From IMG/VR virus record IMGVR_UViG_3300032092_000041, positions 1 through 54,301 of that record: a stretch of 54,301 nucleotides of DNA. One strand, given 5' to 3'. Made by a program: the position numbers and the translations under genes. Below are positions 5,122 through 44,205 of the stretch, in pieces. Source of the stretch: a virus. Within the stretch, counting starts at the first letter, position 1, and each line of letters starts with the position of its first letter. The notes under the pieces are model-generated. The model searched no databases. It was not told the origin of the DNA and was given only the letters and a program-made list of their open reading frames with translations.

Positions 5122-8100
5122 TTAGAATGTTGTGTTTACGTTAGATGGTAAAGCAAGAGCTCGCATATCTGTTACATATGGAACAAAAGTATTATCGGTT
5201 GTTGTTAAAACAATTTTAATTGCAAACTGACTAAATGTTGTGTATGTTTGGCCAGTTGTTGAACTTACATAACTTACATAACCTACATCAACACCTGCTG
5301 TTCCAGGAGCAAAAGCATATTCATAAGTATCTGTTCTAGTTAATGAAAATTGTGTATTGCTGTTATTAATTTTTGTCATTAACTGCCAAGAACTATTATT
5401 AAGGCCTTGAGTATCATTACGATTTAATATTTTGTAATAAACATTAATATCGGTATTTGGTGGCCTGTAAGCAGTTAAGTATACATTAATATCACCAGAA
5501 TCGTTACCTTGTGCCAATTGAATTGGTCTTGTTACATATTTAGCAAGAGCAGGACCACCAACTTGAGAAGTTTCACCAATTACGTTGGCGGAAGCACCAG
5601 TACCTGGAGTGGTATTGGCGTCAATAATTGTAATTGTTGGTGTTTCCAAATAACCTGAACCACCGTTGGTGATATAGATTGATTTAATAACTCCATTCTC
5701 TACGTTAGCTTCAGCAATTGCAGGAGAACCACCAACTCCTGTTGGAGCAGATATTGTTACAGAAAGGTTTGCGTTATTACTGTAACCTGTTCCACCAGAG
5801 GCCAATTGAATTAAATTGTTTGATATTGAGCAATTATTGATGTTCCAATTAATTGCATAAGCACTTAAACCAGCATCAGAAATTACTGGACTAACAAAAG
5901 AATCAGTAGAGGATAGTGTTGCATTTAATATAAATGAGTTATTCGAATATGGTAAAATTACTCGTTCTCCATTACCGTCATCCAAATAAATGTCATCTGC
6001 CGTTGCAGTACCGTATTTTCCAGGTGTAATATTTTTGTTACCAGCACTTGAACCGCTTGCTAAAGTAGCAACATAATTATATGAAATTTGTGTTGTTGTA
6101 GGAGTAAAATCAGTTGTTGTAATATTAAATGCGTCAACATAAGTTGTGGAATTTGAAATTGAATTCAAAGTATTTGAAACGGTGTTTGCATTTGTATAAT
6201 AATCAACCGATTGTTCAATTAATTCTCTTTGTGGAGATAATCTTGGTATCACATAAGGAATTTGTGGTGTTGCACTTGTTGTAAATATACATTGGTCTGC
6301 AACCATCATTAAAGCTTGGTTTTGGTCAACGCTCCATGTTTGAGAATTTTGAGATATGAACAAACCACCAACATAAGGTGCACCGCCAATTTTAGTAACA
6401 ACAGAAGGTGTATTATCAGTTGGTAAATTCTTGGCAGAAGAACCTATAGCAGTATCTCCGTTAGCAGCAGTCCATACTGTGTATTGGTTACTGTCCGTCT
6501 TTACAATAAACGCATACAATACATCAGATTGAATATAAACTGGTACAGAAAATTGGAATACCGTTGCAGTTGTGCCATCTAAGTACTGTGGAGTTTCAGA
6601 AGTATTCACCATATCTGGTGTCAGACTAACAATAGAGTGATCCAAAATGTCGCCATTAGGATAACCGTTTAAAGTACCAACAATATACAATGATACAGGA
6701 ATATTTTCTGTGGTAGGTTTAGACCTAAAGAACAATTTAATGGAATTTAAGAAGAAACCATTTGGATAATTTCTCTTAGATACAATAAATGATTGTGCAA
6801 CTGGATCCCAAGGACTTATAGATGTTGAAACCGATGTTAATTGTTGTTGTGATGTTTGAGTAAATGTACCTTTGGCACCTGCAGGAGAAGCACCAAAATC
6901 TACACGTTGTTGAGTTGTTTGTAAACCTTCAGCGTAGTAAGTTGCTTCTGCATATGTTGTTGCTGAAGTTTGATTGCCTCCAGTACTATTGTCTACTCGT
7001 AATACTCTTTCGCCAGTACGGAAAGTACTGTCTGGTAAATTAAAGATACCATAGAAAGATCCGGTTTCATCAGTTGAAATGCTTCCAATCGAATAAATGT
7101 CGCCATTAGCACTAGTAATAGAAGAAGCCAACACAGCAACTTGGTTTGCACCATAATAATTAGAAATTGTTGCAGATTGATTTTTACCTGTACCAGCACA
7201 AATGTAAATTGTGTTGCCGGTATAGTAACCATCTGTTGTTGCGGCCAATTTAGACAATTGAATTGATGTTGTCGTGTTGGCGTTTAAGATTCTACCGCCA
7301 AAATGTTTGGTTGAGGCTATTGTACCTGATGCTGTATTACCTTGGTAAATTCCGTTTACGTCAAAAAAACCATTTACTAAAGATAAAGAATTATTATATG
7401 TAATAGAAGAAGGATCAGCCGCAACATATAGTCTTGTGTTACTTGTATTGGCATAATTGTATACCCCAACAACTCTTGCGGTTGGAGTGAATATACCACT
7501 TAAATAATAACCTAATACATCGTCTTGTTTAAATGCACCAACAACATTTGTTAATTCAATAATATTTGGTTTACGAATATAATTTATAATACTTGTGTTA
7601 TCAAAATATGCCGTAATTGGAGAATTTGTCAATAAGCTTCCAGCACGAACAACAACTTGTTGTGGCCTAATATATGGCAAAACAGAAATGTCAGTAATAT
7701 ATCCGTTATTTAATGCATATGTACTACCAATTCTATCATACGGACCAAGAATGTCTGATTTTGCTTGTTGCAAAGTCGTCACACTTGATGTAGTTGAAAA
7801 ACCAACCCGACCAAACGGACTTGGATTGATTCCATGGCCTTCGGTAAAAGTTGTTGCACTAGTTGTTGTTCCTGAAATTGTTTTCCAGTCACCAGAAGAT
7901 AACACGCTAATATTTTCGCTAGCTTGAAACACTTGTAAATCTGGATTGGTAATTAATAATGCTGGAGAATAATTTGTATCAACCCAATTATCCATATTTG
8001 GAGATAAAGATAACACGCCTTCACTCGTTACATAAGCAAAAGGATTAACATTGGTTGTTCTAGAAGCCAATTTTTGGCTAAACACATTTGCTGTTGTGAA

Positions 8101-34566: not shown

Positions 34567-34681
34567 ATTGTTACTCCTTGTGTGTGTTTATGTGTATTAC
34601 CAGCGGTTTGTGTGTTGCTGGTGTTTTATTTATCCAGGTGATTCTGTTGCTAAGTTCACCTGGCGAAACTCCGCTTACCTA

Positions 34682-34714
34682 TCAGGCAGCAAGTGCATAC
34701 TTATTATCGTTTGC
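34682..34714 (-). other. tmRNA tag reading frame (ANDNKYALAA)
   Basis: Resume codon GCA at 34714-34712 begins Ala-Asn-Asp-Asn-Lys-Tyr-Ala-Leu-Ala-Ala, then tandem stops TGA TAG. With the alanine carried by the tmRNA itself, the full tag would be AANDNKYALAA. The AND start and ALAA end match bacterial tags recognised by ClpXP and SspB-type adaptors, so tagged proteins should be degraded by host proteases. Confidence 0.9.
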
Positions 34715-34795
34715 GTTTAATTTAAATAGTTTTTACGGCTTCTCTGCCGATTCTCCATTGTTCTAATTATTGCCATGTCGAATCTAGGCACCCCC

Positions 34796-34863
34796 ATCAG
34801 AAGTATATTGCCACAACTATATTGTGTGTTTGCTACCGATAACTCGGTTCGTCAATATACTTT
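34796..34863 (-). other. tmRNA intervening spacer with processing helix
   Basis: The 68-nt segment between the CCA end and the coding-piece 5' G is removed when a permuted tmRNA matures. It is bounded by a perfect 10-bp inverted repeat, AAGTATATTG at 34801-34810 and CAATATACTT at 34853-34862, which would extend the acceptor stem in the precursor and hold both ends together for RNase processing. Confidence 0.75.
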
Positions 34864-34923
34864 TGGTGGAGGTGGTGGGAATCGCACCCACGTCCACAAC
34901 AACGTTCAAACAACTTCTACGAA

Positions 34924-35055
34924 TTACTTTACCGCTTCGGTATGTTTATGCTTAAGGCTTTTCTTTAACAATTTAAACCATAGTTTTTTAATCAATGGCG
35001 TATCATGCTTAATTTCAGCCTCATATAAATTTTTAATTAACTCTTTAACTTTCAT
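34924..35055 (-). CDS. Small basic protein upstream of tmRNA
   Basis: This 43-codon frame begins MKVKELIKNLYEAEIKHD and ends SLKHKHTEAVK. It is helical and basic with a central LIKKLWFKLLKKS. TCGGAAA precedes the ATG at low strength. The stop codon lies a few bases before the start of the tmRNA acceptor piece, so the two would share a transcript. Similar short Lys-rich helices occur in cyanophage-like genomes, but no function is known. It could also be a leader whose translation affects tmRNA processing. Confidence 0.5.
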   Translation of the reverse strand: MKVKELIKNLYEAEIKHDTPLIKKLWFKLLKKSLKHKHTEAVK

Positions 35056-35583: not shown

Positions 35584-36233
35584 CTTTGTTCCTTGTAAAA
35601 TTTAATCGCCTTCACCAAACCAGGAATATGGTCTTGTGTCCGTTGTTTAAATAACAACGGTTGTTCATTTTCTACCGCCATTATAATTACAAGATTATTT
35701 ATAGGTGTACCAATCATTTCTTCATACATCAAAGCGTATGCAGCTGTTTGCCAATAGTAATCTTCAATGTTTGCGCTTGATTTAATCTTCTTGGATGTTT
35801 TAAAATCAATTACAGATAGTTCACCATCGAATTCACCAATACAGTCTACACGACCTGCCATTTCTAATTGTTTGGACCATAAGGCACACTCTTGGTAATG
35901 AATATTGTCGATTCGATTAAGTAATGGTTTCAATGATACAAACATTTCTTTGGCATCAGGCATAATATCACCCAATGATTCATTATTGAGATATCGTTCA
36001 CAGAGTGTGTGAACATTGGTACCACGACTAGTTGCCTTCTTTGATACACGATTGGCTTCTTCTTCACCAACTCTCTTACGCCACTCCATAATGGCTTGTT
36101 TCTTTTGGGCACCAAGCACAGTAGTTACAGAAGGTAATTTGGTACCATCTTCTAGTGTATAGTAACGCTTTCCATCAGGAAAGGTTTCAGATTTTAAGTC
36201 AGCAAGGACTTTTGGTGGACAATAATTAAACAT
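35580..36233 (-). CDS. PD-(D/E)XK exonuclease, RecB/Cas4-like
   Basis: This 217-residue protein contains SRGTNVHTLCERYL (His75), GRVDCIGEFDGELSVIDFKTSKK (Asp130, Asp143, Lys145) and YYWQTAAYALMYEE (the QxxxY motif). This is the RecB-nuclease/Cas4-like arrangement found in many cyanophage exonucleases. It probably processes DNA ends in recombination or host-DNA breakdown. It overlaps the downstream thermonuclease by 4 bp and the upstream oxygenase by 8 bp, so it sits at the boundary between the nuclease genes and the modification cassette. Confidence 0.82.
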   Translation of the reverse strand: MFNYCPPKVLADLKSETFPDGKRYYTLEDGTKLPSVTTVLGAQKKQAIMEWRKRVGEEEANRVSKKATSRGTNVHTLCERYLNNESLGDIMPDAKEMFVSLKPLLNRIDNIHYQECALWSKQLEMAGRVDCIGEFDGELSVIDFKTSKKIKSSANIEDYYWQTAAYALMYEEMIGTPINNLVIIMAVENEQPLLFKQRTQDHIPGLVKAIKFYKEQR

Positions 36234-36882
36234 AATCTATATCGAATACAAATACATTACGAGGCAAATCACTATTATGGACACTAACAGCATGATATAC
36301 TTCTGGTGAATGTATTACTAATTCTCCTTGTTTTGGTTTTAAATAGTACCTATCACATTCATCATATTCATGAATATATGTATCTGCTTTACCGTTGCGT
36401 ATAAAAACTAAATCTGAACTGCCTTCTGGTACATCAACATAAAAAATTCCAACGGCATCTGGTCTAAAATTCTCTGGTGAGTATTGGGTCATTTCAGACA
36501 TATACTCATCCAGTTTAACATGATTATGGCATAATCCTTGGCCATCACGAAATAGTCTATTTGCCCAACTTCTTTTATAATACACCGATTTTACTTCTTT
36601 GTCAACACCTAATTGTTTGTGTACCAAAAGAAATTGTTCTGTAATCCAATTGGTTAAGTTTGAAGCACCAGGTAAGTGAATTAAATCTAAGTATGACTGA
36701 CCAACAGAAGTTAAACCGTTACCCTTATGTGAATCGCCTTTGTCATTTCGTTTTCTGTTTTTCACCGTAGGCATATTCAAAACGTGGTCAACACTTTTTG
36801 TTAAATCTTCATTACGATAAAGTTCTTCATTTTGACATTGTATTCTTACGATTGTACTATCAAAAACATTTTCAATAATCAT
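36226..36882 (-). CDS. 2OG-Fe(II) oxygenase-like protein
   Basis: This 218-residue protein has the expected facial-triad layout: CHNHVKLDEY (His119/His121 and Asp125), then GELVIHSPEVYHAVSVHNSDLPRNVFVFDI, giving a distal His197 and a 2OG-binding Arg208. DAVGIFYVDVPEGSSDLVF fits the double-stranded beta-helix core. Such enzymes hydroxylate or otherwise oxidise proteins or small molecules. It directly follows the halogenase (1-bp overlap) and so probably acts in the same modification pathway. The substrate is unknown. Which His of H119/H121 binds iron cannot be decided by eye. Confidence 0.75.
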   Translation of the reverse strand: MIIENVFDSTIVRIQCQNEELYRNEDLTKSVDHVLNMPTVKNRKRNDKGDSHKGNGLTSVGQSYLDLIHLPGASNLTNWITEQFLLVHKQLGVDKEVKSVYYKRSWANRLFRDGQGLCHNHVKLDEYMSEMTQYSPENFRPDAVGIFYVDVPEGSSDLVFIRNGKADTYIHEYDECDRYYLKPKQGELVIHSPEVYHAVSVHNSDLPRNVFVFDIDYV

Positions 36883-38405
36883 TATGTATTTTTAAGTTCC
36901 TCAATATAATCATTATGGTGAAACATAAAACTACTTTCTAACTCAAATAATTCGGTCAAATCATTTTCAGTTTTTGTAAAATCTTTAAAATCTCGGTTTA
37001 ATATTTTTTTAGCCATCTCAGAACTATAATACTTTATACCAGATCCAACTTGTAACCAACTACTTTCTGAAAACATTGGTATATGTTTTATGCTTGGATT
37101 GATTCTGTTTGTTTCCAAATCATTTAGATAGGTTAAATTGTGTTTTTCAATTATATTATCTTTTATTATTAAATTTAAATCTTCAATAAATGGTAGAATT
37201 TTATTTTTTGTAGAAAAATTTATCCAAAATTCACTATCGTTTCTCTTTGTTTTATAGTGGAAGTGTATAAAATTTAAAACATCTAAATTTGTCCGTTTCA
37301 TAGAATCATTAAAGTCTTTAATTATATTTAAGTCTTTTTCTAATATTTTTTCTTTGTTGTTTCCCCAACTCTTTAACATTAGAATAGTTACCCATATGCT
37401 TGTTGCTTCTAGAGGTTCAACAAAGCTCGAACTTAAACCCATAGCAACACAATTTTTTACACAAACCTCCTCAAAACAACCGGGATCAAAATTAAATGCT
37501 CTTGGGCTTGTTATTTTGTGGCCAAAATATTCTTCTAATTCTTTAATAATATCTTCATCTGAAACAAAATTAGAATCGAAAACATAACCACACCCATGAC
37601 GACCTTGCACGGGAATTTTCCACACCCATCCATGTTTCATTGCAATTGATTCTGTATATGGTGGCAATTCTTCGCCATCATTATCAATGAAAAAAGGAAG
37701 TGCTCGGTTCAATGGTAAATGCTCTTTGTATGATTTCCATTTAGAACCATAATGTTGACCAATAATTAATCTTTTAAATCCTGTGCAATCGAACACAAAA
37801 TCGGTTGTCATTAATCCTTGTGATTTTAAATCAAAACTTTTAATAAAACCTTCAGAATCATTATTAATAGAAATTACTTCATCATCAATTAATTTAATAT
37901 TTCTTTTTAGACCAACGGACTGTAAATGTTTTGCCAATAGATTGGCATCAAAATGTAACGCATATGCTCCGTATGATTCGTAATTTTCTTTGTGTATTTT
38001 TACTTGATTTTTTTCTGAAATATATGATGTTAGATTGATATCATTGAATGAATCGCCAGATGAAATCTTATTCAAGTAGTATGGTTTAAAATCGGCATTT
38101 GCTCGCTCATCGGTATTCTTAAAGTAATCTTGAAACCCGTGATAATAATGGCTACCATCTCCATTCCAATTAGTAAATTTAATACCGTTTTTAAATGTAC
38201 CTTTGGCGTTTTTAATGATATCAGAGATTGGAATATTCATTTCGTTCATCAGTTCAACGAATTGTGGTGTAGTACCTTCGCCTGCACCCAATATTCCTAT
38301 CTCACTACTTGCAACTACAACCACTTCATCTTTTGGACAAATATGTCTAACATAAAGAGCTGTTAACCATCCTGCCGTACCTCCACCAATAATTGTATAT
38401 TTCAT
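36882..38405 (-). CDS. Flavin-dependent tryptophan halogenase-like enzyme
   Basis: This 507-residue protein has the FAD-binding GGGTAGW at residues 7-13, GILGAGEGTTP near 37-47, the conserved Lys72 in TFKNGIKFTNW (equivalent to PrnA Lys79, which forms the haloamine), the family signature WVWKIP at 260-265, and SSFVEPLEATSI with Glu330 at the PrnA Glu346 position. All hallmark residues are thus present. Cyanophage Syn10 encodes a related active halogenase (VirX1), so phage members exist. It needs reduced FAD, likely supplied by the host. It overlaps both neighbours, lying between a 2OG oxygenase and an unknown protein next to a radical SAM gene. Confidence 0.9.
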   Translation of the reverse strand: MKYTIIGGGTAGWLTALYVRHICPKDEVVVVASSEIGILGAGEGTTPQFVELMNEMNIPISDIIKNAKGTFKNGIKFTNWNGDGSHYYHGFQDYFKNTDERANADFKPYYLNKISSGDSFNDINLTSYISEKNQVKIHKENYESYGAYALHFDANLLAKHLQSVGLKRNIKLIDDEVISINNDSEGFIKSFDLKSQGLMTTDFVFDCTGFKRLIIGQHYGSKWKSYKEHLPLNRALPFFIDNDGEELPPYTESIAMKHGWVWKIPVQGRHGCGYVFDSNFVSDEDIIKELEEYFGHKITSPRAFNFDPGCFEEVCVKNCVAMGLSSSFVEPLEATSIWVTILMLKSWGNNKEKILEKDLNIIKDFNDSMKRTNLDVLNFIHFHYKTKRNDSEFWINFSTKNKILPFIEDLNLIIKDNIIEKHNLTYLNDLETNRINPSIKHIPMFSESSWLQVGSGIKYYSSEMAKKILNRDFKDFTKTENDLTELFELESSFMFHHNDYIEELKNT

Positions 38406-39073
38406 AGTGGTAAAATGTTGGTGTGTTCTTCTAAAGTTTTTGGCATAGTATTATTATAATATTCTTTTATTTTTTCAACTATATTGGGGTGTTGTTCAAC
38501 ATCTTCACAAACTTCAATTGGAAATGTACCTGAATATTTTGTAAAGATATTTGTATCGTTTGAATGTTTCATATCACAATTAATAACAATATAATTTGAG
38601 ATACTATTGTTATATAACTTAATATTTTCCACAAACTCAAATTCATTAATTTTTTCCAACAATTGAGCTTGTATCACACTAATTTCCGTTATGGCTGTGG
38701 CCTTATGAATTTGTTCAATGATATCGGTCTCTGGATTTAAATAATAAAAAGAATCCAAATAATCGGTATTGATACACAATGTACAATCATTATCTGTACA
38801 AGACTTTCTATCAAAATAACCTTCCATCAACATATCAATTTGACTTTTATTTTGTATAACTTCTTGTGGAAGAGGTTCTGAACAAAATATTTTTGGTATA
38901 ACCAATTCAATAAAATGTTCATTTTTAAATAACTTAAACATAAAACACTCAACACCACCAATCAATTGTTTGTATTCAATTGGATTATTATAAATCTCAA
39001 CACTAGTGATATTTACCATACTATCAAAAAAATCAATTTTTTCTTGTAAATTTGGTGTTATTGTTACCGACAT
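38402..39073 (-). CDS. Unknown protein between radical SAM and halogenase genes
   Basis: This 223-residue acidic protein has no recognised fold. It contains Cys-rich KSCTDNDCTLCINTDYLDSFYY near residues 90-112, an FMFKLFKNEHFIELVIPKIF strand-rich segment and a C-terminal NIVEKIKEYYNN helix. It overlaps the halogenase by 4 bp and follows the radical SAM gene without a gap. Position suggests a scaffold, substrate-recognition protein or modified substrate of the cassette. No RRE-type wing-helix pattern can be claimed by eye. Confidence 0.65.
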   Translation of the reverse strand: MSVTITPNLQEKIDFFDSMVNITSVEIYNNPIEYKQLIGGVECFMFKLFKNEHFIELVIPKIFCSEPLPQEVIQNKSQIDMLMEGYFDRKSCTDNDCTLCINTDYLDSFYYLNPETDIIEQIHKATAITEISVIQAQLLEKINEFEFVENIKLYNNSISNYIVINCDMKHSNDTNIFTKYSGTFPIEVCEDVEQHPNIVEKIKEYYNNTMPKTLEEHTNILPL

Positions 39074-40513
39074 TTATACCTCTACTCTAGATTTTCCATA
39101 AATTTCCACATCATTCAATTCACCAATTTTTTCTGCAACAACTTTAATTGGTATAATTTTTCTTGTGGGTTTTTCTTCATGTTTATATACTGTTCCAAAA
39201 ATATCTTGGCGTGATAAAGGTAAACCTTCACCTTTAATCGTAACAGGAATATAACCACCTGTTATTTTTTCTAATGCCAAAGCAAATAAACTAATGGCAT
39301 CCGAATAAGCATTATCACAAGTTACATCCCAATGTTTTCCGTCCAAATACATACAAGAACCTTTACAGATATGTAGAACTGGACAATCCGAACAACTCAC
39401 ACGATTCATCCAATGTGTGGCAGATGTTAAGCTAACATTATCATAATCATCTAGATTACCACCATAATGTGGTTCACCATTCTTACTATTCTCAACGATA
39501 GAAACGTTCTGACAAGTTACAATATTACCTTTTAAATCAAGTGCAACTGTTGTTGGTTCTTCCATACCACACTTTTGGCCAACATATTTGTTTTCAACAT
39601 GAGCCAATGTGCCTTTAATAAAATTATCAATTTTGGTAAAGACCATACCAAAATTAATACTGCCTTGGGAGGCGTAAATATCGCCAAAAGATTTTCTTCT
39701 GTAATTAAAGTGTTCGTCTAATGTAATTAATGAATTATTTACTGCTGCATCATCATACGCATCAATGAATCCACCTTCACCAATTGGAACTGATGGATCA
39801 CCAGTCAACTCAGCAAAGAAATCATAAATTGCTTTACGGTCAATATTTTTATTATTCAACATGGCATTAAAACTAATTCTGCCTTGTGGCCTCATGATGT
39901 TATAAAACTCCAAGATAATCTTTTTCTTCTCAGCGTCATCAAACGGATCAGGACCACGAACATATTGGCCAGGACCATCGTGACTGATGCCAACACTAAA
40001 TCCCATGTAGTAGATCCAAGAACAAATCTCTCTTGTTAATAGTGATCCATTGGTTACCATACTGAAATTAACTTTCTTTTTCCAATGGCTATATCTTTCA
40101 GCAAAAGCTTCGGCCAAAGGTTTTAAAGTTTTCCAATATACTAATGGTTCGCCACCCCAAAATTCTACTCTTAAACCAGATTCTTCAGTAATGTTTAATG
40201 CGTCCAGTTTACGCATAAATTCTTCAATATCTTTTTTGCTTGTTTCTGGTGGCCTTTCAACAAATCTTTGACTGCAATAGTCACAGGTGTAATTGCAAGA
40301 TAAACCTAATTGAATTTTAATCAAATCAATATTTTTTGATTTTTTAAGTGGATTTTCTTTCGAAAAAGGTACAGTTTCTTTTAGATTAGGTTTTTTTATT
40401 TCTGGATATTCATAAACAAAACCAGTTTCATCTTTCAAAATTGAATTTACATTATCATAGTAAAACTTCTTACCATCAGTAGAATTTTTTTCAGCATATA
40501 TTTCAAATATCAT
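39074..40513 (-). CDS. Radical SAM/SPASM protein-modifying enzyme
   Basis: This 479-residue protein contains the radical SAM cluster motif CNYTCDYC (Cys73, Cys77, Cys80), then VEFWGGEPLVYW (the GGEP SAM-binding motif), TNGSLLT and GISHDGPGQ. Toward the C-terminus the SPASM pattern is visible: KCGMEEPTTVALDLKGNIVTCQNV and SCSDCPVLHICKGSCMYL, ending in a later Cys. This is the anaerobic sulfatase-maturase or peptide-maturase layout, in which extra Fe-S clusters help modify Cys, Ser or other residues of a protein. The neighbouring gene 17 bp upstream encodes a Cys-rich protein, the obvious candidate substrate. AAGGAT is the ribosome site. Confidence 0.9.
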   Translation of the reverse strand: MIFEIYAEKNSTDGKKFYYDNVNSILKDETGFVYEYPEIKKPNLKETVPFSKENPLKKSKNIDLIKIQLGLSCNYTCDYCSQRFVERPPETSKKDIEEFMRKLDALNITEESGLRVEFWGGEPLVYWKTLKPLAEAFAERYSHWKKKVNFSMVTNGSLLTREICSWIYYMGFSVGISHDGPGQYVRGPDPFDDAEKKKIILEFYNIMRPQGRISFNAMLNNKNIDRKAIYDFFAELTGDPSVPIGEGGFIDAYDDAAVNNSLITLDEHFNYRRKSFGDIYASQGSINFGMVFTKIDNFIKGTLAHVENKYVGQKCGMEEPTTVALDLKGNIVTCQNVSIVENSKNGEPHYGGNLDDYDNVSLTSATHWMNRVSCSDCPVLHICKGSCMYLDGKHWDVTCDNAYSDAISLFALALEKITGGYIPVTIKGEGLPLSRQDIFGTVYKHEEKPTRKIIPIKVVAEKIGELNDVEIYGKSRVEV

Positions 40514-40529
40514 AATAATCCTTTTTTAT

Positions 40530-41012
40530 TTACCAACAAGCACAAGCACAAATCCAACAAGCACACGCACAGTTAAAACTTACGGTGGAGGTGGTGCAAT
40601 TATAAGACGGAGCGTTTTGTGTACAATTATATGAACAAGCACAATTACAATTATTTTGCAAAAATGGTTGGCTATCACAGTTTGCACAATTAATTGCATT
40701 ACAATTTGAACAATTCGAACAATCTGATGGACCTGCAATTAAACAATTGCTACAATTTGTGTCCCCACAATTACAGTTACTTGTACAATTACCGTTTGGA
40801 CCGCCAGATTCAGAGCAATTACCATTGTTACAATTACCTTCATTGTTGCTTTGATAATATGCCTTACTGTAAAAGGCCGCCATATTAGGAGATGCTGGCG
40901 CCGATTTCAATAACCCATTCAAAAAGTTTAAAGATGAGGAAAAAGTAGGCGCTTGGCCAATTTCCGTATTGATATTGGATATGGTTATGGGTCCCGAGGC
41001 TGGTAATGTCAT
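40530..41012 (-). CDS. Cys-rich phage protein with terminal CACACW repeats (candidate modified substrate)
   Basis: This 160-residue protein has two halves. Residues 1-57 (TLPASGPITISNINTEIGQ, then MAAFYSKAYY) match an N-terminal module common on virion proteins of T4-like aquatic phages. Residues 61-160 contain 23 Cys, 16 of them preceded by Asn (NC dipeptides), ending in CACACW-I-CACACW. The two Trp (153 and 160) are the only ones in the protein, and the last residue is Trp. There is no signal peptide. AAGGA lies before the ATG, and a GATAAATA late-type octamer lies about 25 bp upstream. The radical SAM gene follows directly. Substrate status is inference. Confidence 0.8.
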   Translation of the reverse strand: MTLPASGPITISNINTEIGQAPTFSSSLNFLNGLLKSAPASPNMAAFYSKAYYQSNNEGNCNNGNCSESGGPNGNCTSNCNCGDTNCSNCLIAGPSDCSNCSNCNAINCANCDSQPFLQNNCNCACSYNCTQNAPSYNCTTSTVSFNCACACWICACACW

Positions 41013-41036
41013 TTACAATTCCTTAAATTAATGAGG

Positions 41037-41044
41037 TATTTATC
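41037..41044 (-). promoter_or_regulatory. Candidate late promoter (GATAAATA) of Cys-rich gene
   Basis: The minus-strand octamer GATAAATA differs by one base from TATAAATA and ends about 25 bp before the ATG at 41012. It overlaps the stop codon of the upstream oxygenase gene. If active, it would give late expression of the Cys-rich protein and the genes after it. Confidence 0.45.
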
Positions 41045-41612
41045 TACTAATATTTGATACTGATCCATTATGTATATTTGTAGTAATACTAATCCTTTTG
41101 TCATCCGACATATTTTTCTCAACCTCATGTAAAACATATGCCGGAAATAACACCAATTTACCCTCTTTCGGCTTAACTCTTTTGTATTTAATGCCACGAA
41201 TACCACCATCTTCCAACCATTCCCAATTTACACCACCTCTAGGGTCAACCAATAACAAATCACCACAATCGGCCGGAGATTTAACATAGTAAGTACAGGT
41301 TAATAATGAACCTCCATGGTCATGTAGTGGGTTACCCACACCTTTAAGATTTTCATTAATCCAGCCAAACATAATACATGGATTGTAAGGGTAAAAGTCT
41401 GGAAAGTATTCAGTTACCGTGTTATCCAAAGATTCAAATATTTTATCTTTTAAAATATTCAAGCACGGAGTTGAATATTCCCATAGGTTAGTGCGTGAAT
41501 TTTTTGGTATCGTACCATTCAATTCTTCCAATAATTTATCATTAAAAAGATAGTTTAAACCAGTGTCTATTTCCCAAACGGGAGTTGACCACCACTCATG
41601 TTTCGTAATCAT
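41040..41612 (-). CDS. 2OG-Fe(II) oxygenase (TIGR02466-like)
   Basis: This 190-residue protein begins ITKHEWWSTPVWEIDTGL, typical of the TIGR02466 family of putative 2OG-Fe(II) oxygenases. Iron-binding candidates are NPLHDHGGSLLTCTYYV (His97 with Asp98 or His99) and GKLVLFPAYVLHEVEKN (His162), with Arg173 in KRISITTNI for 2OG binding. It lies directly upstream of the Cys-rich gene and overlaps the upstream DUF6445-like gene by 17 bp. Relatives are common in cyanophages, where the target is unknown. Here it may hydroxylate the neighbouring protein. Confidence 0.8.
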   Translation of the reverse strand: MITKHEWWSTPVWEIDTGLNYLFNDKLLEELNGTIPKNSRTNLWEYSTPCLNILKDKIFESLDNTVTEYFPDFYPYNPCIMFGWINENLKGVGNPLHDHGGSLLTCTYYVKSPADCGDLLLVDPRGGVNWEWLEDGGIRGIKYKRVKPKEGKLVLFPAYVLHEVEKNMSDDKRISITTNIHNGSVSNISR

Positions 41613-42192
41613 AATGTTTTTCTTTCACACGATTCAAATTTTTCATATCAATATTAATTTCATTAATGAAAAAATTAAGGCTTAATCTACAATCATCAAT
41701 GCTTTGGCCAAAACCAAAATTGGGAGAATGAAAATAATCTCCACGATACAATATCATTTTATTGAATTCATAACTAATGTTGGTTTCTTCACCATTTCTG
41801 TATATTTTTGTTCCATGATTATTAAATTTATCCACAAAGTTTTCATTTAAATAAATTAAACCAGAATATAAAGAGGTGTCTTTGTGTACCCAAGAATTAT
41901 TTGGTATATGGGTATCAAATAAACAATGAAACAAACATATGGATTGTAATTTAATTTTGGACGGTACGCTGTCTTTAAAGAGTTTGGATACTATCTTATT
42001 ATTTAATTCATAACACAATTCTTCACTTAATATATCAGAAATGTGTAATGTTCTTATACCACTATAACCAAACTTTGGATTGGTCATCGATGGGTTATCT
42101 TTTGTTAGATAATATTTTTGTTTTTTGGCCAATTCAACAATTTTGTGTGGGTCATCAAAGAAATTGTTGACACATAATATATCGGGTATCAT
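41596..42192 (-). CDS. DUF6445-like 2OG-Fe(II)-type protein
   Basis: This 198-residue protein contains WVHKDTSLYSGLIYLNE (His103-x-Asp105), KMILYRGDYFHSPNFGFG (His155) and DDCRLSLNFFI (Arg169), a full HxD...H...R set. The layout resembles DUF6445 proteins, which in bacteria often neighbour tryptophan-halogenase genes. That association makes it a likely functional partner of the halogenase in this cluster. It starts with IPDILCVNNFFDDPHKIVELAKK, the usual N-terminus of such proteins. Overlap with the next oxygenase gene implies co-translation. Confidence 0.75.
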   Translation of the reverse strand: MIPDILCVNNFFDDPHKIVELAKKQKYYLTKDNPSMTNPKFGYSGIRTLHISDILSEELCYELNNKIVSKLFKDSVPSKIKLQSICLFHCLFDTHIPNNSWVHKDTSLYSGLIYLNENFVDKFNNHGTKIYRNGEETNISYEFNKMILYRGDYFHSPNFGFGQSIDDCRLSLNFFINEINIDMKNLNRVKEKHYDYET

Positions 42193-43301: not shown

Positions 43302-43543
43302 TTCTTCACCTTATTAATAGTTGCAGTAGATGTTTTTTCATCTATTGTCATATAACCTTCACAAGCAATATTCCAGTCATCACCAAATTCATTGCCGGAT
43401 CGTTCTGATTGTGATGGCACATTAATCTTTACATTTTTAAAAATAAACTCATCACCATTTTCAAATACACGCCACGCATGGTCTTTACCGCCACGACCTG
43501 GTTGGCCTTTTGATTTGTTAAAACGAATATGATATTTGTTCAT
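43298..43543 (-). CDS. Small conserved phage protein
   Basis: This 81-residue protein contains YHIRFNKSKGQPGRGGKDHAWRVFENG and a C-terminal EGYMTIDEKTSTATIN. Its beta-rich pattern resembles small proteins conserved in cyanophages. ATGA overlaps link it to both neighbours, including the 2OG oxygenase upstream. No catalytic residues or metal sites stand out. Confidence 0.65.
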   Translation of the reverse strand: MNKYHIRFNKSKGQPGRGGKDHAWRVFENGDEFIFKNVKINVPSQSERSGNEFGDDWNIACEGYMTIDEKTSTATINKVKK

Positions 43544-44205
43544 GCGTTTGTTATGGCCAAATTAAAATGAATTAATCTTAATGGTTGTTTACTTGGATTT
43601 CTTTGAATGGTGTGTGGCAACCAAGAATTAGTTAGAATCATCAAACCAGGTTCAGGCGTATAGTTTATCATGTTGCTTGCAATCGTTGCTTGAGTAATAT
43701 CCATTTCAGGTAAATTGGCATAAACTTTAGCAGGTCTTGGATCATGAAACACAACTCTCGGTCCATCTTTTGGGGTATCAAGGAAATAAAATCCAGATAT
43801 TTGATTACCCATGCCGTGAATGTGTTCTTCGTGGCCAGAACCTGTGTGGTGTTCTTGAGCCCACATTTCAGTATATACCATTTTAAAACCGGTTACATTG
43901 TAACCTTGCGAGAGCAATACTTGATGTGCAGCACCACTCACAAAACCAACAAAGTCACTAATCCTTGGATCAGTAAACATATTGTCACCTTGAGCAATAG
44001 GAAAAGTTTTATCTAGTTTAACTTTTTTCTTTGATTCATCAAGATATAGTTTAGATACTTTTCTTAGTGTATCAAGAAACTTTGGTTCAATCAAAGAGTA
44101 GATGCTACTACAAAAATAATTGGCGCCGTAAAGTTGTACTTGCTCACTTTTTAATTCGTTGGTGTTTTCAGAAACTTCACCAACTACTTTTGCTTTTTTT
44201 ACCAT
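43540..44205 (-). CDS. 2OG-Fe(II) oxygenase (fourth in the window)
   Basis: This 221-residue protein contains HTGSGHEEHIHGMGNQISGFYFLD (His128 and His130), then PGLMILTNSWLPHTIQRNP with distal His198 and Arg210 in LRLIHFNLA, fitting the TIGR02466-type 2OG-Fe(II) fold. The second iron ligand is a His or Glu rather than the usual Asp, so the exact metal set is uncertain. It is separated by about 1.3 kb from the main modification cassette but on the same strand. A TATAAT-like element overlaps the end of the gene upstream. Confidence 0.75.
   Translation of the reverse strand: MVKKAKVVGEVSENTNELKSEQVQLYGANYFCSSIYSLIEPKFLDTLRKVSKLYLDESKKKVKLDKTFPIAQGDNMFTDPRISDFVGFVSGAAHQVLLSQGYNVTGFKMVYTEMWAQEHHTGSGHEEHIHGMGNQISGFYFLDTPKDGPRVVFHDPRPAKVYANLPEMDITQATIASNMINYTPEPGLMILTNSWLPHTIQRNPSKQPLRLIHFNLAITNA

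Follow-up and report, generated by a model that had tools for sequence, protein, structure and literature searches.

A radical SAM enzyme paired with a cysteine-rich C-terminal tip in phages and prophages: a putative maturation system for tail-fibre-type proteins

A block of seven genes in a virus contig probably serves to mature the tip of a tail-fibre-type protein of the phage: a radical SAM (rSAM) enzyme would cross-link a cysteine-rich tip, and a halogenase would act on a tryptophan of that tip. The invariant core of the block is the pair formed by the rSAM enzyme and the tip; the halogenase, the 2OG oxygenases, the DUF6445 protein and a B12-type rSAM protein are optional. The block is not a chance arrangement, as hundreds of viral contigs, and prophages as well, contain the same core.

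Enzymes of the types found here are known to act on cysteine and tryptophan residues of proteins. QhpD, a SPASM rSAM enzyme, forms Cys-Asp/Glu thioethers in QhpC, after which QhpG, a flavoprotein with a halogenase fold, oxidises a Trp of QhpC in a ternary complex (PMC7876137). PapB links Cys to Asp through thioethers and tolerates Cys-Xn-Asp spacings of n = 0 to 6 (PMC9413430). In the open-access full texts searched, we found no paper connecting the modification of phage tails to radical SAM enzymes, or describing receptor-contact tips built by radical chemistry. In this study, we follow up an earlier note on this DNA, which had proposed that the block is a cassette for modifying a Cys-rich protein.

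Results

The window, i.e. the whole stretch of DNA analysed, is the IMG/VR virus contig IMGVR_UViG_3300032092_000041 (54-kb; 54,301 nt, positions 1 to 54,301), in which by our reading T4-like structural genes are present. The seven ORFs form the tight same-strand block that had been described: all lie on the minus strand and are separated by 0-27 bp or overlap slightly. In order of transcription they encode a DUF6445-like protein with an HxD...H...R pattern (41596..42192), a PF13759 2OG-Fe(II) oxygenase (41040..41612), a Cys-rich protein of 160 aa (40530..41012), a radical SAM/SPASM enzyme of 479 aa (39074..40513), an unknown protein of 223 aa (38402..39073), a Trp halogenase (36882..38405) and a second PF13759 2OG oxygenase (36226..36882). 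The three 2OG-type assignments hold at Pfam gathering scores. The oxygenases at 41040 and 36226, which would be optional tailoring enzymes, reach 66.7 and 29.9 bits against PF13759 (2OG-FeII_Oxy_5; gathering score 27), and the product of 41596 reaches 28.3 bits against DUF6445 (PF20043; gathering score 24), a weak match confined to the last 44 of the 224 profile columns (181-224). DUF6445 is present in 20 loci. A further PF13759 2OG oxygenase is encoded 1.3 kb upstream of the block (43540-44205, minus strand), and a permuted tmRNA adjoins the cassette (34591-34969, minus strand; tag ANDNKYALAA). The tmRNA scores 115 bits against the Rfam tmRNA_permuted model and 85 bits against the betaproteobacterial tmRNA model (cut-off 84), which hints at a betaproteobacterial host.

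The Cys-rich tail-type protein, defined by its profile family and by alignment, is the presumed shared substrate of the block. It consists of an N-terminal "MTLPASGPITISNINTEIG" module followed by a Cys-rich C-terminal domain, and it ends in the tip CACACWICACACW (40533..40571, minus strand), whose alternating Cys and terminal Trp, together with tip statistics, mark it as the presumed site of modification. Where two terminal Trp had been reported, one is indeed the last residue and the other stands 7 residues earlier. By profile search, the family occurs in 235 loci. Nothing convincing was found for the window protein in Pfam, PHROGs or NCBIfam, and in Pfam and PHROGs it showed neither an S74 domain nor homology to tail proteins; such a domain or homology was found in the same-family members L024, L375 and L382, and the S74-bearing homologues match tail fibre and long-tail-fibre PHROGs. 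Because longer members of the family carry tail-fibre S74 domains, the virion tail tip is the likely target. It is these homologues that would place the window protein in the virion, and the position of its gene outside the structural-gene region counts against a fibre reading. A tblastn search of cultured phages returned no match with the window protein and, with a relative as query, only a weak match to a tail-fibre N-terminus, a null result that does not show absence because BLAST masks such sequence. In a near-identical contig (L003:9734-10000) the Cys-rich gene is ~232 bp shorter and runs out of frame after ~70 codons, through either collapse of a repeat during assembly or a real deletion.

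The product of 39074 matches Radical_SAM/phrog_1802 (E 1e-63) and PF04055 (37.5 bits, cut-off 29.5). Its CxxxCxxC cluster motif (C73, C77 and C80; 40274..40297, minus strand) is conserved in 131 of 132 distinct rSAMs, the exception being one gapped row. The SPASM auxiliary-cluster cysteines, C315-X13-G329-X4-C334, C374, C377, C383, C387 and C399 (39317..39571, minus strand), are conserved in all 132 under the pattern CX9-15GX4C ... CX2CX5CX3C ... C, and the window enzyme carries the full set of seven, in agreement with its earlier identification as a radical SAM/SPASM protein. Invariant cysteines and family match make it the presumed tip maturase. Its best NCBIfam resemblances are to PapB (1.3e-24), geopeptide maturase (5e-21), QhpD (4e-20) and CcpM (4e-19), all four far below the curated cut-offs, and it also matches models of the sulfatase maturase (3e-13) and of the cyclophane-forming YhhB (4e-14).

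The pairing of enzyme and tip was examined in both directions. Profile scans of viral contigs, one bacterial-genome scan and loci from other scans yielded 338 rSAM loci, and a tip gene was scored wherever a same-strand ORF within 5 kb belonged to the Cys-rich family or contained (Cx)3C. Such a gene was present at 308 of the 338 loci, as compared to 6 of 338 for the motif on the opposite strand; counted as distinct rSAMs, 187 of 207 have a tip. Most of the 20 tipless enzymes are truncated by contig ends, and at L290 and L293 the tip lies just beyond the strict criteria. Four (L296, L330, L098 and L007) have no convincing tip gene and count against the pairing. At L007, an orphan frame of 24 codons (6015-6087) reading CDCVCACNC adjoins a 70%-identical rSAM, with no intact tip gene, and is a remnant, a frameshift or a coincidence. 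For the reverse test, ORF hits of a motif-only scan for NCNCNCNC were counted if the sequence continued for at least 3.5 kb downstream. The rSAM family lay beside 36 of these 39 hits, a few of the enzyme matches being weak (e.g. L469, 155 and 45 bits), and the three hits without it were internal, non-terminal, low-complexity, chance-like ORFs.

A survey of relatives had been set beforehand as the refuting test of the cassette proposal; rSAM and halogenase genes do co-occur with the Cys-rich gene, and the refutation failed. As judged from sequence, the proposal appears supported in its core, with enzyme and tip linked in both search directions, and may be widened to an rSAM-tip pair that extends beyond the window phage. 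The rest of the cassette, comprising halogenase, 2OG and DUF6445 genes, proved to be optional.

In close relatives, whose rSAMs are 70-80% identical, the gene order is (DUF6445)-2OG-Cys-rich-rSAM-accessory-halogenase-(B12-type rSAM)-2OG-exonuclease, with gain and loss of individual enzymes: L008 has an extra rSAM, L016 has extra 2OGs and L375 is without a halogenase. The second rSAM protein of L008 (13623-15155), probably B12-binding, is an optional member of the cassette present in 52 loci. The enzymes of roseobacter prophages are only ~36% identical and still have a tip, with a small ORF ending in YSFNCNCNCRC directly upstream of the rSAM gene. One bacterium, Thalassobacter stenotrophicus CECT 5294, contains four loci of the family (L105, L106, L107 and L109). 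At L428, L434, L469 and L493, diverged rSAMs are found with proteins of 67-79 aa that end in sequences like H-T-H-[ILV]-F..DDYST-ACNCNCNCNC, several of them per locus in L428. In a partial search of HTVC008M, P-SSM2 and S-H38 for CxCxCxC codon patterns, the readable ones were mostly short chance-like peptides. In 43 of 66 distant-type loci, a 2OG gene lies upstream of the rSAM gene at a distance of up to 3.5 kb, a raw frequency not set against a background rate; since phages of this kind often carry 2OG genes, the link between 2OG and tip is weak and the weakest part of the set.

The proteins that carry the tip fall into about 16 types (50%-length linkage) that share little but the tip, and several of these types match tail-fibre PHROGs. 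The tip gene of Achromobacter phage JWF, PJWF_00028, is annotated as a Hint protein and has a T4 gp36 match, and that of Achromobacter phage 2-1 comes shortly after the baseplate hub protein gene; the tip of these two phages reads NCNCDCNCS. The tip forms the end of the protein in 107 of 187 unique loci and directly precedes a helical domain in 70; in the remaining settings it stands directly before a Hint domain or an S74 chaperone domain, with PF13884 (S74) beginning at the residue right after FW or CACAC. Auto-cleavage takes place at the start of S74 domains, and Hint domains undergo self-splicing or self-cleavage, so that in these types the tip would become the mature C-terminus. The "SKII" helical domain (165-180 aa, all-helical, with S/G-K-I-[IV]-C...ADQ.[YF]G..., e.g. 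L047:11849-12373) gave a good model (pLDDT 90) and no PDB match. In nearly all cases, X in the CxC tips is N (345), A (212) or D (96), and of the 107 end-type tips, 102 have N before the first Cys.

Alignment and modelling of the accessory protein (38402..39073) point to two tandem copies of an alpha/beta domain of ~100 aa, and its C-terminal half matches a single-domain protein encoded directly after the rSAM gene in other phages (hhalign E 9e-12). Searches of Pfam, PHROGs and NCBIfam gave no convincing family. A fold comparison of its model (pLDDT 85) with the PDB yielded nothing significant (best E 0.026), and the protein is therefore not recognisably a PqqD-like RRE.

The halogenase matches PF04820 Trp_halogenase (E 2e-97, 327 bits) and is a canonical flavin-dependent enzyme, as had been noted from its hallmark residues: the GxGxxG glycines, WxWxIP, Lys72 and Glu330 are all found and are kept in 76 of 76 rows of its clade, as expected of true halogenases (PMC8407142). 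All halogenases with a profile E below 1e-155 have an rSAM 327-1921 bp upstream except L114, where the sequence extends only 38 bp upstream, and L120, which lies in a different neighbourhood. Among the matches listed, none of those between 7e-152 and 2e-128 has one. The window halogenase belongs to a discrete rSAM-linked clade, encoded just downstream of the rSAM given enough flank, with the exception of L120. Phage halogenases without rSAM or tip were found in 58 loci, e.g. in HTVC008M and cyanophages. A role as tip enzymes for phage halogenases in general was rejected, as most have neither partner.

Within the tip-associated clade, the terminal Trp is the presumed target of the enzyme. In loci with at least 4.5 kb of downstream sequence, and with a Trp tip defined by a terminal Trp or by FW directly before S74, a canonical halogenase was present in 24 of 24 Trp-tip loci and a halogenase homologue in 5 of 108 others. 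These five homologues are more distant; in three of them (L041, L048 and L063) the Lys and WxWxIP are missing, and the other two, L294 and L295, qualify as canonical or close to it and, having no Trp tip, count against the association. L375 offers the most telling case for a coupling of Trp and halogenase, and a suggestive one: this collinear relative retains the B12-rSAM, Cys-rich, rSAM, accessory and exonuclease genes and has neither the terminal Trp nor the halogenase, its tip reading CSWICACAC, followed by SDK and S74. On the rSAM tree, terminal Trp and halogenase have only one or two joint origins, so that their association is suggestive and not independently replicated. For the same reason, the Fisher test of Trp against halogenase (p 2.6e-19) was set aside as replicated evidence.

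Discussion

In the RiPP- and QHNDH-like mechanism that we propose, the 160-aa protein would end in an exposed tip of alternating Cys and a terminal Trp. The SPASM rSAM enzyme would modify this tip, most likely by linking Cys sulfur to carbon of neighbouring residues in thioethers like those of QhpD and PapB, with the accessory protein probably presenting the substrate, a role suggested by the position of its gene. The halogenase would then halogenate a tip Trp, most likely the terminal one, and the 2OG and DUF6445 enzymes would hydroxylate residues of the tip or the fibre, resulting in a rigid, chemically capped tip that contacts the receptor or the membrane. The proposed Cys cross-links, halogenated Trp and 2OG-derived hydroxyls draw on the analogy with QHNDH maturation and PapB; we likewise infer the identity of the physical substrate, the type of bond, the order of the steps, the location in the virion and the biological role. 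A more general idea, which we put forward tentatively, is that a covalently cross-linked polycysteine "nib" on tail fibres is a widespread and unrecognised virion modification that some lineages cap with halogenated Trp and hydroxylated residues, and that tip and maturase form a portable module moving between unrelated fibres.

Maturation of the QHNDH gamma-subunit is similar in that a SPASM rSAM enzyme and a halogenase-fold flavoprotein share one small Cys-rich protein as their target, acting on its Cys and Trp, and QhpD (TIGR03906) is the third-best NCBIfam match of the window rSAM. The window substrate, however, is not QhpC-like (no family match) and resembles a tail-fibre tip, the scores against QhpD (71.8 bits, cut-off 453) and QhpG (16.9, cut-off 240) are low, the window flavoprotein has halogenase motifs and no leader protease was seen. 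PapB-type ranthipeptide maturases provide the best NCBIfam match (NF047865, E 1e-24) and also have a Cys-rich substrate gene next door, whereas the window enzyme reaches 87.1 bits against a cut-off of 340, its tip has CxC with N/A/D in place of repeated Cys-X3-Asp, and its substrate is the C-terminal tail of a phage protein. The window system would work like both and by these cut-offs is a member of neither. SPASM enzymes are chemically diverse, and with the sulfatase maturase and YhhB models also matching, the rSAM might make some other change to the tip, i.e. epimerisation, a C-C cross-link or oxidation of Cys to formylglycine, and no thioethers; we regard this as rather unlikely, given that its better matches include the thioether formers PapB and QhpD and that the substrate Cys are many and evenly spaced. 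It is very unlikely that the flavoprotein is a Trp monooxygenase leading to a Cys-tryptophylquinone-like cofactor and not to halo-Trp. QhpG does work with an rSAM enzyme on a Cys-rich protein (PMC7876137), and the halogenase has weak matches to the QhpG and LodB models (0.002-0.015), but WxWxIP, Lys72 and Glu330 are intact throughout the 76 clade members, and WxWxIP has been suggested to prevent monooxygenation (PMC8407142).

The tip could also be mainly a metal-binding needle, with CxC rings in a trimeric fibre coordinating iron, zinc or Fe-S and the rSAM making a minor or assembly-related change. Its alternating Cys do resemble the HxH of T4 gp37 and marine phage fibres (PMC11705849), and the X residues of CxC are small or polar. 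This account is nevertheless unlikely, as it leaves unexplained a SPASM enzyme with invariant clusters beside essentially every tip, and no such enzyme is known to be needed for HxH needles. The iron-binding tip of gp37, as cited in the same paper, shares with ours the regular alternation of metal-ligand-type residues in a fibre tip, and differs in having His where the window has Cys and in the dedicated radical SAM enzyme that adjoins the latter. Metal binding and cross-linking are compatible with each other. Least probable of all is a set of unrelated auxiliary genes in a shared variable locus, with the halogenase using small molecules as substrates, as VirX1 does in vitro. Halogenases without rSAM or tip are common in phages, but that of the window falls in a discrete rSAM-tied clade, and unrelated phages share the pairing of rSAM and tip.

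Returning to the proposed maturation of a tail-fibre tip, the S74/ICA- and Hint-bearing tail fibres are comparable in that homologues of the Cys-rich protein carry PF13884 and others a Hint-like domain, whereas the window protein has neither. To our knowledge, no such fibre is known with an rSAM-linked Cys tip. If correct, the proposal would add a new type of virion maturation, provide many orphan radical SAM, halogenase and 2OG genes of phages with natural substrates, offer a simple search rule (a terminal CxCxCxC beside a phrog_1802-type rSAM) and, for one clade, make the target of phage-encoded halogenases amenable to direct testing. The proposal is open to testing in cultured systems, namely the Achromobacter phages JWF and 2-1 and the prophages of bacteria in culture.

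VirX1 and the cyanophage and pelagiphage halogenases (PMC8407142) are likewise phage-encoded PF04820 proteins with the same motifs (VirX1 match 1e-45), but those of HTVC008M, P-SSM2 and S-H38 have no rSAM or Cys tip nearby. At L122 (4506-14082), halogenases without rSAM or Cys tip, together with 2OG-type genes, adjoin tail-like proteins whose ends are rich in Gly (GGGGGGG...GPGGPGI); this may be a further set that modifies fibres.
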